Assembly: GCF_040530035.1 (NCBI RefSeq)
Contig: NZ_JBEWCD010000001.1
Span: forward strand, 1,240,001-1,304,000
Origin: Roseibium sp. HPY-6
GTDB taxonomy: Bacteria; Pseudomonadota; Alphaproteobacteria; Rhizobiales; Stappiaceae
Length of the DNA stretch: 64,000 bases
Direction of reading: 5' to 3'
Shown here: positions 8,502 to 41,809 of the stretch, piece by piece
Numbering within the stretch: the first letter of the stretch is position 1
Layout of the letters: each line of letters starts with the position of its first letter
Translations under genes and position numbers: made by a program
Notes under the pieces: generated by a model
Seen by the model: only the letters and a program-made list of their open reading frames with translations
Told to the model about the DNA's origin: nothing
The model's database searches: none

Positions 8502-8524
8502 AGAAAATGGTGGGCCCGGAGGGA
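8502..8524. repeat. Right direct repeat within tRNA(CAU) 3' end (candidate att site)
   Basis: Identical 23-base block to 4926-4948. Here it belongs to the intact tRNA gene. The tRNA 3' end points towards the island interior, as expected for integration downstream of a tRNA. Confidence 0.7.
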
Positions 8525-8584
8525 CTCGAACCCCCAACCAATCCGTTATGAGCGGACGGCTCTAACCAGTTGAGCTACAGGCCC
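8508..8584 (-). tRNA. tRNA with anticodon CAU, probably tRNA-Ile2 (lysidine-modified)
   Basis: A full 77-nt cloverleaf can be folded on the minus strand. The acceptor stem is GGGCCTG with CGGGCCC, followed by discriminator A and an encoded CCA. The D-arm begins GCTC, the anticodon loop is CTCATAA and the T-loop is TTCGAGT. The CAU anticodon fits elongator Met or Ile2. The TTGGTTG stretch after the anticodon stem resembles known Ile2 genes, so I favour Ile2, the substrate of TilS. It serves as the probable integration target of the adjacent island. Confidence 0.88.
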
Positions 8585-37948: not shown

Positions 37949-38317
37949 GACGACTCGCACAGCTTGCGTTTCAACTCGGCGGCGAGTTTGCCTGTGGCGC
38001 TGGTACCGCGCAAGGGGGATGGCATCCGCTGATCTGCAAAGCCTTACCGGTGAAGACCCTGCGGCCTTCGCCCTTCTGCCGGGCAGAATGCCTCGATCCA
38101 ATGAAGTTGCAAAAAAGCAACATATAGTGGCGCAAAAGCATCATACTCATCAAAGCATGCGATTACCACTTGCAACCCCTCAAGAAAACGAAGTATCACC
38201 TCATCACCGATCAAGAGGTTGGCGCAGACATCAACGGTTAGGCTGTTTTTCTGCCGCCCGCGTGATCCGGCTCTGCCGTGTTCACGTACGGATGCTGTTC
38301 TGACAGATCGGAGATCC
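37949..38317. other. Leader region upstream of the tRNA-like cluster
   Basis: No supported gene. It contains a small hairpin (GTTGC-AAAAAA-GCAAC near 38104-38119). The promoter for the tRNA-like cluster is expected here. I could not fit a convincing sigma-54 site. Confidence 0.4.
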
Positions 38318-38391
38318 GCGCATGAAGTTCAACGGTTGAACGCCGGGATGTAACCCGGAAGCAACAGGTTCGACTCCTGTCGTGTGTACCA
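38318..38391 (+). ncRNA. tRNA-like element A (degenerate, full acceptor with CCA)
   Basis: 74 nt fold as a tRNA. The acceptor GCGCATG pairs with CGTGTGT over seven pairs (three G-U), followed by discriminator A and CCA. D-arm GTTC/GAAC, T-arm ACAGG-TTCGACT-CCTGT. The anticodon stem CCGGG/CCCGG encloses only six loop bases (ATGTAA) instead of seven, so the anticodon is ambiguous (GUA or UGU). It is thus not an ordinary tRNA. It is adjacent to a second tRNA-like element and lies about 480 bp upstream of the slipin gene. Confidence 0.6.
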
Positions 38392-38465
38392 TGGATAGCT
38401 CAGTAGGTAGAGCATCGGACTGCGAATCCGAGGGTCGCGGGTTCAACTCCCGTTCCACAAACCGG
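38392..38465 (+). ncRNA. tRNA-like element B, anticodon GCG, defective acceptor
   Basis: Immediately follows the CCA of element A. D-arm GCTC/GAGC with loop AGTAGGTA, anticodon stem TCGGA/TCCGA with loop CTGCGAA (anticodon GCG, nominally Arg), variable GGGTC and T-arm GCGGG-TTCAACT-CCCGT are all intact. The acceptor is not: only about four pairs (TGGA/TCCA) form, the rest would need element A's CCA, and no CCA is encoded. Bacteria normally read CGC with anticodon ACG, so GCG is unexpected. Confidence 0.6.
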
Positions 38466-38525
38466 CCTTGAAAACCGGACTGGCTTCTTAAGCCGGCAGC
38501 TTTAGGTGCTGTTCAAATCATAGGG
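38466..38525 (+). ncRNA. Weak tRNA-like element C
   Basis: CTGGC-TTCTTAA-GCCGG forms a 5-bp stem with a 7-base loop (anticodon CTT), followed by CAGC-TTTAGGT-GCTG, like a long variable arm, and TTCAAAT as a T-loop. T-stem pairs are mostly lost and no acceptor is seen. Treat as a remnant. Confidence 0.3.
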
Positions 38526-38560
38526 GATCTGAAGGGATCTTGCGGACGCAGGACGCGTAA

Positions 38561-38578
38561 CCCTGTCTTCGGACAGGG
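38561..38578 (+). other. UUCG tetraloop hairpin in slipin leader
   Basis: Perfect 7-bp stem CCCTGTC/GACAGGG capped by TTCG. It is about 300 bp before the slipin start, with no T-run, so it is structural rather than an obvious terminator. Confidence 0.5.
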
Positions 38579-38870
38579 CGAGCGGATTGCCGACGCCAGG
38601 TGCGCTCGCCCGGTTCCCGTCCAAGACCACGCTGCAGTTCGGCTGGACGTGCCTGTTTTCGAAGAGGCCAAACCCGCCGCACCGCCGCAAGGCCCTCTGG
38701 CCGGAAACCCGTCGGGAGCCCTCGTGCTCTCTTCAGGTCTCCACATCATACGCTCAATTCATTTCGCCCCGGGTCGCCCAGGCAACGACCCGGTATCAAC
38801 CACCCCCAAACCCGACATCAACCTGACGAAAGGAAGCCAAGTGCCTTAGAGCCATGGAAGGAGTATTGAA

Positions 38871-40025
38871 ATGATGACTTTTCTCGACAGAATCCGCGGA
38901 CGGACCCGCGTTGTGATTTCCGAAAACGAACGGGCACTGCACCTCGTCAGGGGTGAGCTCCAGGGTATCCTTGAACCGGGTGAACACAGTCTGAAAAACG
39001 GCCGTGGAACGCTCGTGATTGAGCGTCATGCACTGGCGTTGCCCGAATTCCGTTCCGGTTACGAGAAGGCGCTCTTCGATAAACTCCCTGATGTGGCTGA
39101 AAAGCACTTTACCGTCGTGCGGACCCGGTCCGCCGAGGTGGCAGTTGTCGAGCGGGATGGCCGGGTGCACAAGGTTCTGGGTCCTGACGAACGCCTTGTT
39201 CTGTGGACGGATGCGGGACCGTGGACCTGGGAACTGATCGACACGCAGGACCAGCCGGAGCTGACGCAAAAACTGATGCGCCGGCTGGGTGATGCGAAGC
39301 AGACGCAGCAGTTTGTGATCGTCCCGGTCACCGAAGGCAGCGTCGCACTGCTCTTCGTCGACGGTGTCCTCACCCGGACGCTGACCGCCGGTGTTCACGC
39401 TTTCTGGAAGGCCGGGCGTACGGTGACCCAGAAGCTCATCGACCTTAAGCGGCAGAGCCTCGACGTCACCGGTCAGGAAGTGCTAACGCTTGATCGTGTC
39501 ACGATCCGGATCAACCTGTCTGCGGAATTCCGCGTGGTTGATCCGGTCAAGGCAGCTCAGGAGGTCAAGGACTTCGCGGACACGCTGCACCGGGCGCTGC
39601 AGATGGTTTTCCGGAAGCAGCTCGGCGCGTTGAAGCTGGACCAGATTCTTGAGCGCAAGGGCGAGGTCAACGCGGAGGCAACCGCTCAGATCAAGTCAGA
39701 CATGGCTGCGATCGGTGTTGAGATCCACGATATCGTCCTGAAGGATGTCATCCTGCCGGGCGAAATGCGCGAGATCCTCAACAAGGTGGTGACCGCCGAA
39801 AAAGAGGCTGAAGCAAACGTGATCCGGCGCCGCGAAGAAACGAACGCAACCCGTTCGCTTCTGAACACGGCCAAGGTCATGGCCGAAAACCCGGTCATGC
39901 TGCGGCTGAAAGAATTGGAAGCGCTGGAATCGATCGCCGGAAAGGTGGACCGGCTGACGGTCCACAACGGAACCGGAGGCTTGATGAACGATCTTGTCAA
40001 GCTGCGCGACGACAGCGCGGCATAA
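38871..40025 (+). CDS. Slipin-family SPFH protein (soluble type)
   Basis: 384 residues. The SPFH/Band 7 domain occupies about residues 165-300 (LKRQSLDVTGQEVLTLDRVTI, AEFRVVDPVKAAQEV, followed by a DVILPGEMREILNKVV helix). A coiled-coil tail (VTAEKEAEANVIRRREETNATRSLLNTA) is typical of oligomerising slipins. There is no N-terminal membrane hairpin; instead a novel ~160-residue N-terminus is present, the type seen beside RNA-repair enzymes in comparative genomics. GGAAGGAG precedes the ATG. It is flanked by the tRNA-like cluster and kptA. Confidence 0.85.
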   Translation: MMTFLDRIRGRTRVVISENERALHLVRGELQGILEPGEHSLKNGRGTLVIERHALALPEFRSGYEKALFDKLPDVAEKHFTVVRTRSAEVAVVERDGRVHKVLGPDERLVLWTDAGPWTWELIDTQDQPELTQKLMRRLGDAKQTQQFVIVPVTEGSVALLFVDGVLTRTLTAGVHAFWKAGRTVTQKLIDLKRQSLDVTGQEVLTLDRVTIRINLSAEFRVVDPVKAAQEVKDFADTLHRALQMVFRKQLGALKLDQILERKGEVNAEATAQIKSDMAAIGVEIHDIVLKDVILPGEMREILNKVVTAEKEAEANVIRRREETNATRSLLNTAKVMAENPVMLRLKELEALESIAGKVDRLTVHNGTGGLMNDLVKLRDDSAA

Positions 40026-40030
40026 CAACG

Positions 40031-40067
40031 GACGGCGCGGGGCAGCTCGCGCCGTCTTCTTTTTTTT
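40031..40067 (+). terminator. Strong intrinsic terminator of the slipin gene
   Basis: Perfect 9-bp stem GACGGCGCG/CGCGCCGTC with an 8-nt loop, followed by TTCT and a run of T residues to 40067. Confidence 0.9.
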
Positions 40068-40077
40068 GCCTCGGTCT

Positions 40078-40120
40078 TGAGCCGGGGCCAATTTGTCATG
40101 CCTGTTGAGGCCCCGGCTCA
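40078..40120. repeat. GC-rich 12-bp inverted repeat, REP-like
   Basis: TGAGCCGGGGCC and GGCCCCGGCTCA (perfect, 19-nt loop) between the slipin terminator and kptA. It resembles dispersed palindromic elements of marine alphaproteobacteria, but only one copy is in this window. Confidence 0.45.
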
Positions 40121-40151
40121 AGGCCGGGGCGGCACTAAACAAATAACGAAT

Positions 40152-40703
40152 ATGCGAAACATAACAAAAATCTCCAAACAGCTTTCTTACTGGCTACGGC
40201 ACTGTCCGCAGGATGCCGGCCTGGTGCTTTCCGAAACAGGTTGGGCAAATGTCGATGCGGTGCTGAAAGCCCTATCTGACAAGGGCGTCTCTTGCGACGC
40301 TGAAAAACTCGGCAATGTCGTTGCCTTGAATGACAAACAGCGCTTTGAGTTCTCCGAAGATGGCGCTTCGATACGCGCGCGGCAGGGCCATTCCGTCAAG
40401 ATTGACCTGGAGCTGACACCAGTTTCACCACCGGACCTCCTCTTTCATGGCACCGCAGAAAGGTTTTTGTCTTCCATCCTGCGCGAGGGATTGAAACCAA
40501 TGAAGCGGCACCATGTGCATTTGTCGGACACAGTCGAGACGGCTCTGAATGTCGGCAAAAGGCACGGAGAGCCGGTTGTTCTATTGATTGATGCGGCGAA
40601 AATGTCCGTCGCCGGGCACCAGTTCTACAAGACGGAGAACGGTGTCTGGTTAACTTCGTCGGTGCCCGTGGCCTGTCTTTCAAGACATTCCGGCAAAGTG
40701 TGA
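40152..40703 (+). CDS. kptA: RNA 2'-phosphotransferase (KptA/Tpt1)
   Basis: 183 residues from ATG 40152; the longer frame upstream crosses the palindrome. The motifs fit Tpt1/KptA: ISKQLSYWLRHCPQDAGL, the DLLFHGTAERFLSSILREGLKPM block and HHVHLSDTVETALNVGKRHGEPVVLLIDAAKM, with NGVWLTSSVP at the end. Tpt1 removes the 2'-phosphate left at splice or ligation junctions, using NAD+. A clear terminator separates it from slipin, so it probably has its own promoter. Bacterial KptA has no known substrate in most species; here it sits beside tRNA-like sequences. Confidence 0.92.
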   Translation: MRNITKISKQLSYWLRHCPQDAGLVLSETGWANVDAVLKALSDKGVSCDAEKLGNVVALNDKQRFEFSEDGASIRARQGHSVKIDLELTPVSPPDLLFHGTAERFLSSILREGLKPMKRHHVHLSDTVETALNVGKRHGEPVVLLIDAAKMSVAGHQFYKTENGVWLTSSVPVACLSRHSGKV

Positions 40704-40774
40704 CGCAGCAGCATTGACGAAAACCGGCAATCGGCTGACACTTTCGGCATGATTTTTAATGAACCGGTTTGACC

Positions 40775-41809
40775 ATGAAATTTCCTGCGTCCCGCATACT
40801 TGTCGATCTGCATTCCTGTCCGAGTTGCCTGGGCACGCCATTGCCCATTATGTGGAAAGGAGCGTTCAGAGTAATAACCGGAATGTTCCCGCAAGCGCGG
40901 GTGACCGACCTTTGCCTGTGTGTCGGCCCGCCACCGCCAATAGGTGGCGACCCGATCATCACCGGGGCCTTCAACGTTCTGGTGGAAGGGATGCCTGCCG
41001 CCCGCATGACGGATCTGACGCTCAAAGCGGGCGCCCTCACCACGGGGTACCCAAGGGTGCTCATCGGTATGACGCCCGGTCCGGGTGGTGGCGGCGGCGG
41101 CGCAGGCGGCGGTGCAGGTGGTGCCGGAGGCGCAGGTGGTGCCGGCGCGGGAGCCGGTGGCGCTGCTGGCGCGGCGGCTGGTGGCGGAGCGGCATCCAAT
41201 CTGTCGCCCAAACAAATTGCCGATCTCAGACGCAACGCCCTGATGAACAAGATCAAGAACGGTCAGTCATCGATCAAGGTTGAGGGAACGGATGAGTTCA
41301 AGCAAAAAGCCATGGATTCATTGGACACGTTGGCCCAATCACCCACCGGCATGGACCTCCTTCTGGCGCTCGATTCCAGCGACCAATCGACAACGATCAA
41401 GGATGCCGGCCCAGGCAAGGGAAGCTCGGAAGCACCCTCAAACTGGGACGACTGCAACTACGACACGGTCAACGACAAGCCGGGTCCAGGCACGGACAGC
41501 ACAGTGAGTTTCAACCCCGACCGAGACAAGCACAACGGCGAAGGCTGGCAGACGACAGACCCCGCGATCGTTCTCGGACACGAACTCATTCACTCCTACC
41601 ATGACACACATGGGACGAACGATCCGCGTGGTGAGGTCGAATACACCGGTCACGATGGCCTGAAACACAAGGCACCCGGCTATGAGTTGCAGGCCGTCGG
41701 CCTGGGCGAGTATGAAGACAACGAATTCACCGAAAACAAGATCCGCAAGGATTTCAATGATCTGGGTATCGGTAAGAATGAAGAAGAGCACCAGAGACCC
41801 TACTACTAA
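40775..41809 (+). CDS. PAAR-domain effector with M91-like metallopeptidase domain
   Basis: 344 residues from ATG 40775; an in-frame TTG lies two codons upstream. Residues about 5-105 are a PAAR tip (PITTGMFPQ-like VITGMFPQARVTD, GGDPIITGAFNVLVEGMPAARMTDLT). A Gly/Ala-rich linker of about 50 residues follows (positions 41080-41200). The C-terminal half has the zinc motif HELIHSYHDTHG with a distal acidic GEVEYTGH region, like NleD/M91 peptidases. This is a cargo effector architecture for type VI or contractile injection systems, though no such machine lies in the window. No classic ribosome binding site. Confidence 0.8.
   Translation: MKFPASRILVDLHSCPSCLGTPLPIMWKGAFRVITGMFPQARVTDLCLCVGPPPPIGGDPIITGAFNVLVEGMPAARMTDLTLKAGALTTGYPRVLIGMTPGPGGGGGGAGGGAGGAGGAGGAGAGAGGAAGAAAGGGAASNLSPKQIADLRRNALMNKIKNGQSSIKVEGTDEFKQKAMDSLDTLAQSPTGMDLLLALDSSDQSTTIKDAGPGKGSSEAPSNWDDCNYDTVNDKPGPGTDSTVSFNPDRDKHNGEGWQTTDPAIVLGHELIHSYHDTHGTNDPRGEVEYTGHDGLKHKAPGYELQAVGLGEYEDNEFTENKIRKDFNDLGIGKNEEEHQRPYY

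Follow-up and report, generated by a model that had tools for sequence, protein, structure and literature searches.

A conserved two-unit tRNA-like RNA upstream of a soluble slipin gene in Roseibium sp. HPY-6, and its possible role as a decoy or sensor for anticodon nucleases

Why should a bacterial chromosome carry two tRNA-like sequences, fused end to end and apparently ill suited to translation, in front of a slipin gene? The question is raised by a 64,000-nt stretch of Roseibium sp. HPY-6 (assembly GCF_040530035.1, contig NZ_JBEWCD010000001.1, positions 1,240,001 to 1,304,000 of the forward strand), which we call the window and in which all unlabelled coordinates are given. An earlier sequence-only reading of positions 38318-40703 had taken the tRNA-like RNAs, the slipin and a KptA gene for parts of one RNA-damage response locus. 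Comparison with related genomes shows that positions 38241-40057 form a single conserved module, predicted to consist of an RNA of about 500 nt with two fused tRNA mimics, the slipin gene and a terminator-like hairpin. We are nearly certain of this anatomy and of the family link set out below. That the RNA is a tRNA decoy or sensor ribonucleoprotein (RNP) directed at anticodon nucleases is a possibility that we put forward tentatively.

The two adjacent tRNA-like sequences of the earlier reading hold up well. Unit A (38318-38388, + strand) scores 48.5 bits against Rfam RF00005, for which the gathering score is 29 bits, and is also recovered by a dedicated parser and by covariation; unit B (38389-38461, + strand) scores 58.4 bits and was the only one called by ARAGORN in 38318-38461, as tRNA-Arg(gcg). 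Apart from these two, an Rfam scan of the 64-kb window returned only the tRNA-Met at 8511-8584 at gathering score. The weak third tRNA-like element that had been suspected did not survive, the segment concerned (38462-38511, + strand) giving no Rfam tRNA match and resolving into three short hairpins (consensus helices 14-16).

Unit A possesses D, anticodon and T arms, all seven of its acceptor positions are paired in the Rfam alignment, and covarying pairs are found in its acceptor, D and anticodon stems. Its anticodon loop in the window is 6 nt long (CCGGG AUGUAA CCCGG); across relatives this loop ranges from 5 to 7 nt and is 5-6 nt in 53 of the 71 loci where unit A could be parsed, the parsing having been unsuccessful in 9 of 80. 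An encoded CCA (38389-38391) lies directly 3′ of unit A, and the acceptor of unit B begins at the next base. In the window the first three acceptor pairs of unit B are non-standard, which leaves four (38392-38395 with 38454-38457), while its D, anticodon and T arms are intact and its anticodon loop is a 7-nt CUGCGAA with the anticodon GCG at 38422-38424. Neither the 7-nt anticodon loop nor the 7-bp acceptor of a canonical tRNA is thus present in both units. Units A and B are poor tRNAs, and their anatomy argues against translation: in the window the loop of A cannot read codons normally, the acceptor of B is abnormal, and the one unit runs directly into the other.

The RNA reaches well beyond the 38318-38465 interval of the sequence-only reading. 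Structure supported by covariation spans roughly 500 nt of RNA (38241-38738, + strand) upstream of the slipin gene, extending some 75 nt 5′ of unit A and 275 nt 3′ of unit B. The consensus, obtained with RNAalifold and pair counts from 13 aligned Roseibium-type upstream regions (window included), has 125 pairs in 24 helices and comprises a 5′ leader, both tRNA-like units, the three hairpins and a 3′ domain. On the + strand the leader domain (38241-38302) contains helices 1, 3, 4 and 5, helix 2 pairs 38257-38259 of the leader with 38524-38526, and the 3′ domain (38527-38738) is closed by the covarying 11-bp helix 17 around inner helices 18-24. Pairing is kept in 95.6% of the cells of the alignment, compared to about 41% when the partners are slid. 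Both sides have changed in 47 of the 125 pairs, compared to 22.9 in shuffles (0 of 500 shuffles as high), in a test where the structure was drawn from the same alignment and the shuffle control leaves relatedness in. This comparative support confirms that the predicted RNA structure is more than chance, because the units recur in related genomes and the structure covaries. Folding of the window sequence by itself speaks against it: the whole RNA region is unexceptional (z = -1.16), unit B taken singly is too (z = 0.09), and neither A nor B, when folded on its own, adopts a cloverleaf as its lowest-energy fold.

The RNA is also tied to the slipin gene. From 177 relatives found among one-genome-per-species contigs we took the best 80, which come from Roseibium, Mesorhizobium, Shinella, Rhizobium, sphingomonads and others. 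ARAGORN found tRNA-like units at most 2 kb upstream of the slipin in 78 of the 80 loci, the negatives being L009 and the short L063. The dedicated parser, from which L063 was left out for having only 353 nt of upstream sequence, found unit B upstream in 80 of 80 (79 relatives and the window); the parser gives stray matches away from the RNA, and Rfam and ARAGORN are the independent checks. Twelve more distant slipins, with 33-43% identity to that of the window over nearly the full length, likewise all have tRNA-like units upstream according to parser output and the printed sequence. ARAGORN alone detected these in nine of the twelve, missing L171, L176 and L179, and the L171 RNA scores only 29.9 bits with Rfam. 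The conservation of tRNA-like elements with slipin that the sequence-only reading depended on is therefore found in both sets. One distant locus, L178, carries three tandem units upstream of its slipin instead of two, the middle one with a 6-nt loop.

The search can also be run from the RNA. A covariance model of A plus B, built from the window and its relatives, gave 15 matches of at least 100 bits in 249 genomes of the order, a cut-off used since ordinary tRNAs, single or paired, also match the model; in 14 cases a slipin gene follows closely, and the remaining match stops 59 nt short of the end of its contig. Slipin genes have a scattered distribution, occurring in 31 of 249 genomes of the order (E 1e-40) and 16 of 299 of the phylum (E < 1e-60). 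A recheck took in 27 of the 31 from the order (L259-L261 were omitted and one further genome had no locus) and found a clear upstream cloverleaf in 21 by reading and in 24 by script; the cloverleaf is poor in L278, L279 and L283, and there is none in L285, L287 and L288. Since RNA matches sit upstream of slipins in both search directions, the RNA and the slipin mostly travel together across genomes. Viral contigs gave one relative (L181), without an ARAGORN match, and a plasmid search returned nine records, several of them near chromosome size.

Unit B is notable for the turnover of its anticodon. Among the 80 sequences there are 31 distinct B loops, and the 7-nt length is kept in 77, which carry 13 anticodons between them; in these 77 loops U33 is present in 66, a purine at position 37 in 74, and U or G at position 36 in 76. 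Rates were estimated from 51 Mesorhizobium-type loci, with changes inferred on three alternative trees. The anticodon triplet of unit B switched 21-22 times among nine states, chiefly GUU, CAU and UAG, with 17-18 changes at position 34 and 15-16 at position 35, and there were no changes at all in the D-stem, anticodon stem or T-stem of the unit. Only 1-4 of the 626 RNA columns match or exceed the count at position 34, and of 154 fourfold-degenerate sites in the slipin gene no more than 0.6-3.9% equal the counts at positions 34 or 35. A short-acceptor unit with a hypervariable anticodon is better suited to serve as bait than to translate, as the sequence-only reading had supposed of these defective units.

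A pairing partner elsewhere in the RNA might have explained such change, and no consistent one exists within it for positions 34 and 35. A pseudoknot was rejected as the cause, since no varying column pairs with position 34 in more than 67% of sequences or with position 35 in more than 54%. For position 36 there is a varying column, 221 in unit A, with which it can pair in 86% of sequences, as part of no helix. Complements of B-loop 4-mers share a location in no more than 20 of 51 sequences, and those of 5-mers in no more than two.

The slipin gene (38871-40025, + strand) encodes a soluble SPFH/Band-7 protein of 384 amino acids (Pfam PF01145, Band_7, 106.7 bits), a member of a family whose proteins assemble into rings or cages. 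An AlphaFold2 model (mean predicted local distance difference test score 84.2, predicted template modelling score 0.60) begins with three repeats of five strands each; the last of these runs on into the SPFH domain, and a long helix comes after it. The absence of a membrane hairpin, proposed earlier, is borne out: a hydropathy scan with a 19-residue span and the structural model, used here in place of a dedicated membrane predictor, show no hydrophobic N-terminal segment. No 19-mer outside residues 148-168 averages 1.6, and residues 148-168 are beta strands in the model; among 46 relatives, 10 have some 19-mer that reaches this value, at whatever position. The closest solved structures are stomatins and HflK/C. 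The vault protein also matches the whole model, which suggested homology; it matches the N-terminal repeats by themselves only weakly.

The family to which this protein belongs has been placed in RNA repair before: in 2016 Burroughs and Aravind are reported to have counted SPFH/Band-7 proteins, together with a novel tRNA-like RNA, among the cofactors of RNA repair. In our data RtcB lies within about 5 kb of the slipin in nine of the twelve distant loci (L168-L172, L175 and L177-L179), and by tblastn RtcA is nearby in five of the nine and RtcR in six. Pfam confirms RtcB, RtcA, RtcR and RlaP ('RNA repair pathway DNA polymerase beta family') for sampled proteins, RlaP occurring in L178. The slipin-repair connection drawn in the sequence-only reading is thereby upheld in other proteobacteria. 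At the 80 loci nearer to the window none of RtcB, RtcA and RtcR was found by tblastn with one query each, in flanks of up to 5 kb each side, some of them shorter. Strong sigma-54-like sites precede the RNA in three of the twelve distant loci (L171, L175, L177). A sigma-54 promoter was rejected at the window locus, where a pattern scan of the 760 nt upstream of the slipin found no site; the same scan of the 79 other upstream regions gave a few weak matches at scattered positions.

Within the order, 16 of the 31 genomes with a slipin also have RtcB, as do 29 of the 218 others (Fisher P = 4e-6, uncorrected for phylogeny); two of the 31 hold short SPFH forms, and the figures become 15 of 29 and 30 of 220 when these are excluded. 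The association of RtcR is weaker (7 of 31 compared to 15 of 218, P = 0.01, likewise uncorrected). Since RtcB is nearby in nine of the twelve distant loci, the slipin family and its tRNA-like RNA are, as judged from gene neighbourhoods, the same as at the RtcB-linked repair loci of other proteobacteria, and the window locus is a stand-alone branch of that SPFH RNA-repair system.

In the window genome RtcB is encoded elsewhere only, where the earlier reading had advised looking for it. A Ro60 (TROVE)-RtcB locus with a divergent RtcR (L136, 6564-12473; G000:C1, 2010563-2016472) contains no Rfam family, Y RNA included, at gathering score, and a second RtcB is followed by an RF-1-domain (PrfH-like) gene (L135, 6447-8281; G000:C1, 634446-636280). 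The genome also has, outside the window, a compact array of Leu, Pro, Leu and Tyr tRNAs at G000:C2 830395-830751 and just beyond (L113/L132), two of which have low Rfam scores (49.1 and 51.3 bits). ARAGORN reports a tRNA array upstream of the slipin in L169 (Phe, Gly, Asp, Phe, Arg, Pro, His, Leu) and tRNAs between rtcA and the slipin in L172 (Asn, His, Gly). In E. coli (L182, 6463-8916) a slipin gene with a sigma-54-like site upstream and, after it, a nucleotidyltransferase gene occupy the interval from rluF/DUF3811 to lysC; among 5426 complete genomes, 1621 cover the slipin query to at least 80%. The corresponding Citrobacter locus (L183, 5500-7910) has a divergent rtcR, and its nucleotidyltransferase is RlaP by Pfam. 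In Anabaena, rtcB is repressed by TrcR together with a slipin gene and a tRNA operon (PMC10272220), and PaFlo8 of P. aeruginosa is placed in the rtc locus (PMC13086221).

The KptA gene is a different matter. The kptA/tpt1 gene (RNA 2′-phosphotransferase; 40152-40703, + strand) is present as claimed (Pfam PF01885, 175.5 bits against a cut-off of 26), falls just below the NCBIfam equivalog cut-off (238.3 against 239) and is the sole KptA match in the whole genome. Between the slipin stop codon and kptA is a hairpin resembling an intrinsic terminator (40030-40057, + strand; 12-bp stem and T run; z = -3.59), with 0 of 200 shuffles as stable, and kptA is found in only eight of the 80 loci, all among the 12 from Roseibium, Labrenzia and Stappia. 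Because the hairpin intervenes and the gene is so seldom present, KptA is set aside as a neighbour and is not shown to be a member of the module. The gene after kptA (40769-41809) joins a PAAR motif to a Peptidase_M91 domain ('effector protein'), resembling type VI secretion cargo. Taken as a whole, the observations of the sequence-only reading were confirmed and its interpretation stands in part, with the conservation of RNA and slipin upheld, KptA as the end-repair arm unsupported, and decoy or sensor action still conjectural.

How might such a module work? On the simplest reading, which we prefer, an SPFH oligomer would hold the RNA at its surface or inside it, so that a tRNA face would be presented to tRNA-cutting enzymes. 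The switchable anticodon arm of unit B might occupy, or be cut by, anticodon nucleases deployed in phage defence, as toxins or by competitors, and as an outcome real tRNAs would be spared or the damage signalled. The repeated replacement of the anticodon within a frozen scaffold could then follow changes in the attacking nucleases. At RtcR-linked loci, a cut in unit B could set free its tRNA-like 5′ part ending in a cyclic phosphate, and RtcR binds ligands of this kind (PMC7790460); sensing and decoy action could thus coincide. Every step from binding onward is what we infer from the anatomy and its evolution. In its fuller form this reading has a decoy RNP of non-translating mimics with divided roles, unit A contributing the acceptor/CCA end and unit B the anticodon arm, the anticodon of B being swapped again and again in evolution to match the nucleases met, so that the module would amount to an evolving collection of tRNA baits able to act independently of an RNA ligase; so specified, it is rather doubtful.

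A number of observations weigh against the decoy or sensor reading or narrow it. The fastest fourfold-degenerate slipin sites reach 22-23 changes, and position 36 is ordinary, 19-28% of the fourfold sites changing as often. Variation in unit B is not confined to the anticodon either, with D-loop columns showing up to 12 changes, one T-loop column 13 and position 32 10-11. Exact mimicry of host tRNA loops was rejected, 5 of 29 distinct B loops being identical to a host loop compared to 9.5% expected (P = 0.14). There is no RtcB match in 15 of the 31 slipin genomes of the order, so the RtcB ligase would not be required. Upstream of the E. coli and Citrobacter slipins there is only a T-arm-like hairpin and no ARAGORN match, which implies that the anticodon arm is not needed everywhere.

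These points have to be read together with other accounts of the same locus. The RNA could be the 5′ leader of the slipin mRNA, in which case cleavage, processing or binding of the units would alter slipin expression, a sensor in cis with no free decoy. Its position agrees with this, since the RNA, where found, lies directly upstream of the slipin on the same strand, no terminator-like site separates the two on the + strand of the window, and in L171, L175 and L177 the sigma-54-like site precedes the RNA; a stable processed RNA is also possible, however, and the RNA is far bigger than a minimal sensor. We regard a purely cis-acting leader as a serious rival, though an unlikely one. Also a serious rival, and slightly less likely in our estimate, is a structural RNA that scaffolds SPFH assembly while the anticodon loops of A and B touch nothing and drift. 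Such drift would account for the shrunken loops of unit A, the fast columns in the D-loop and T-loop of unit B, the chance level of host-loop identities, and the few other RNA columns and fourfold sites that are equally fast. Drift alone does not predict that unit B should keep tRNA loop rules (7 nt, mostly U33 and a purine at 37, U or G at 36) beside rates at positions 34 and 35 in the top few percent of synonymous sites.

Two further explanations fare much worse. Both units are scored by Rfam and one by ARAGORN, and the tRNAs neighbouring the slipin in L169 and L172 would fit a small bank of real tRNA genes that replaces cleaved tRNAs. With 5-6-nt loops in A, a 4-bp acceptor in B in the window, the CCA of A fused to B, and anticodons that change on one body with unchanged stems, such a bank is very improbable. 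The earlier proposal of an RNA-end repair locus in which the tRNA-like RNAs, the slipin and KptA act jointly could draw on the position of kptA, which in the window and in eight relatives comes after the slipin in the same orientation, and on its being the only KptA match in the genome; with the terminator-like hairpin in between and no kptA match at the other 72 of 80 loci, we consider joint action highly unlikely.

The decoy or sensor reading can be placed beside several known systems. The closest are the RtcR/sigma-54-controlled RNA-repair operons, which have the same SPFH family and a tRNA-like RNA upstream, whereas the window RNA and slipin occur without RtcB, RtcA, RtcR or a sigma-54 site at the locus. 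The rsr-yrlBA-rtcBA operons share the RNA-repair context and combine an RNA-binding protein, Ro60/Rsr, with a partly tRNA-like Y RNA (YrlA), a proposed nuclease competitor (PMC7790460). The protein family is another one, however, and the window RNA has two whole cloverleaf-like units. The junction of the A T-arm and B D-arm (38356-38420) weakly resembles the tRNA-like module of YrlA Y RNA (26.5 bits, E 0.0027, below threshold), and membership of that family (RF02553, gathering score 69) was rejected. Membrane slipins or stomatins have the SPFH domain in common with the window slipin and differ from it in their N-terminal membrane hairpin; HflK/C, also membrane SPFH proteins, and the vault, with its major vault protein, are likewise among the closest systems. 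Phage-encoded tRNAs offer a parallel in that their anticodon loops are proposed to be shaped by anticodon nucleases, and they carry anticodon-loop changes that evade host tRNases (PMC10264068). Unlike the window units, which are defective, fused and part of a chromosomal RNA, the phage tRNAs are proposed to be working, insensitive replacements.

A literature search turned up, in the partial texts it covered, no recognised description of this RNA or of its anticodon turnover; the 2016 work of Burroughs and Aravind lay outside that coverage. The tandem fusion, the full structure and the turnover of the anticodon are described here, and their novelty is unproven.

Anticodon nucleases are weapons of phage defence and of bacterial competition, and the countermeasures known to us are repair enzymes and resistant tRNAs. 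If the decoy or sensor reading is true, a fast-evolving anticodon arm in a frozen frame would be a third kind of countermeasure, and the RNA would leave a lineage-by-lineage record of which tRNAs were attacked. The 2016 proposal of SPFH proteins with a cognate tRNA-like RNA would thereby become testable in soil and marine bacteria.

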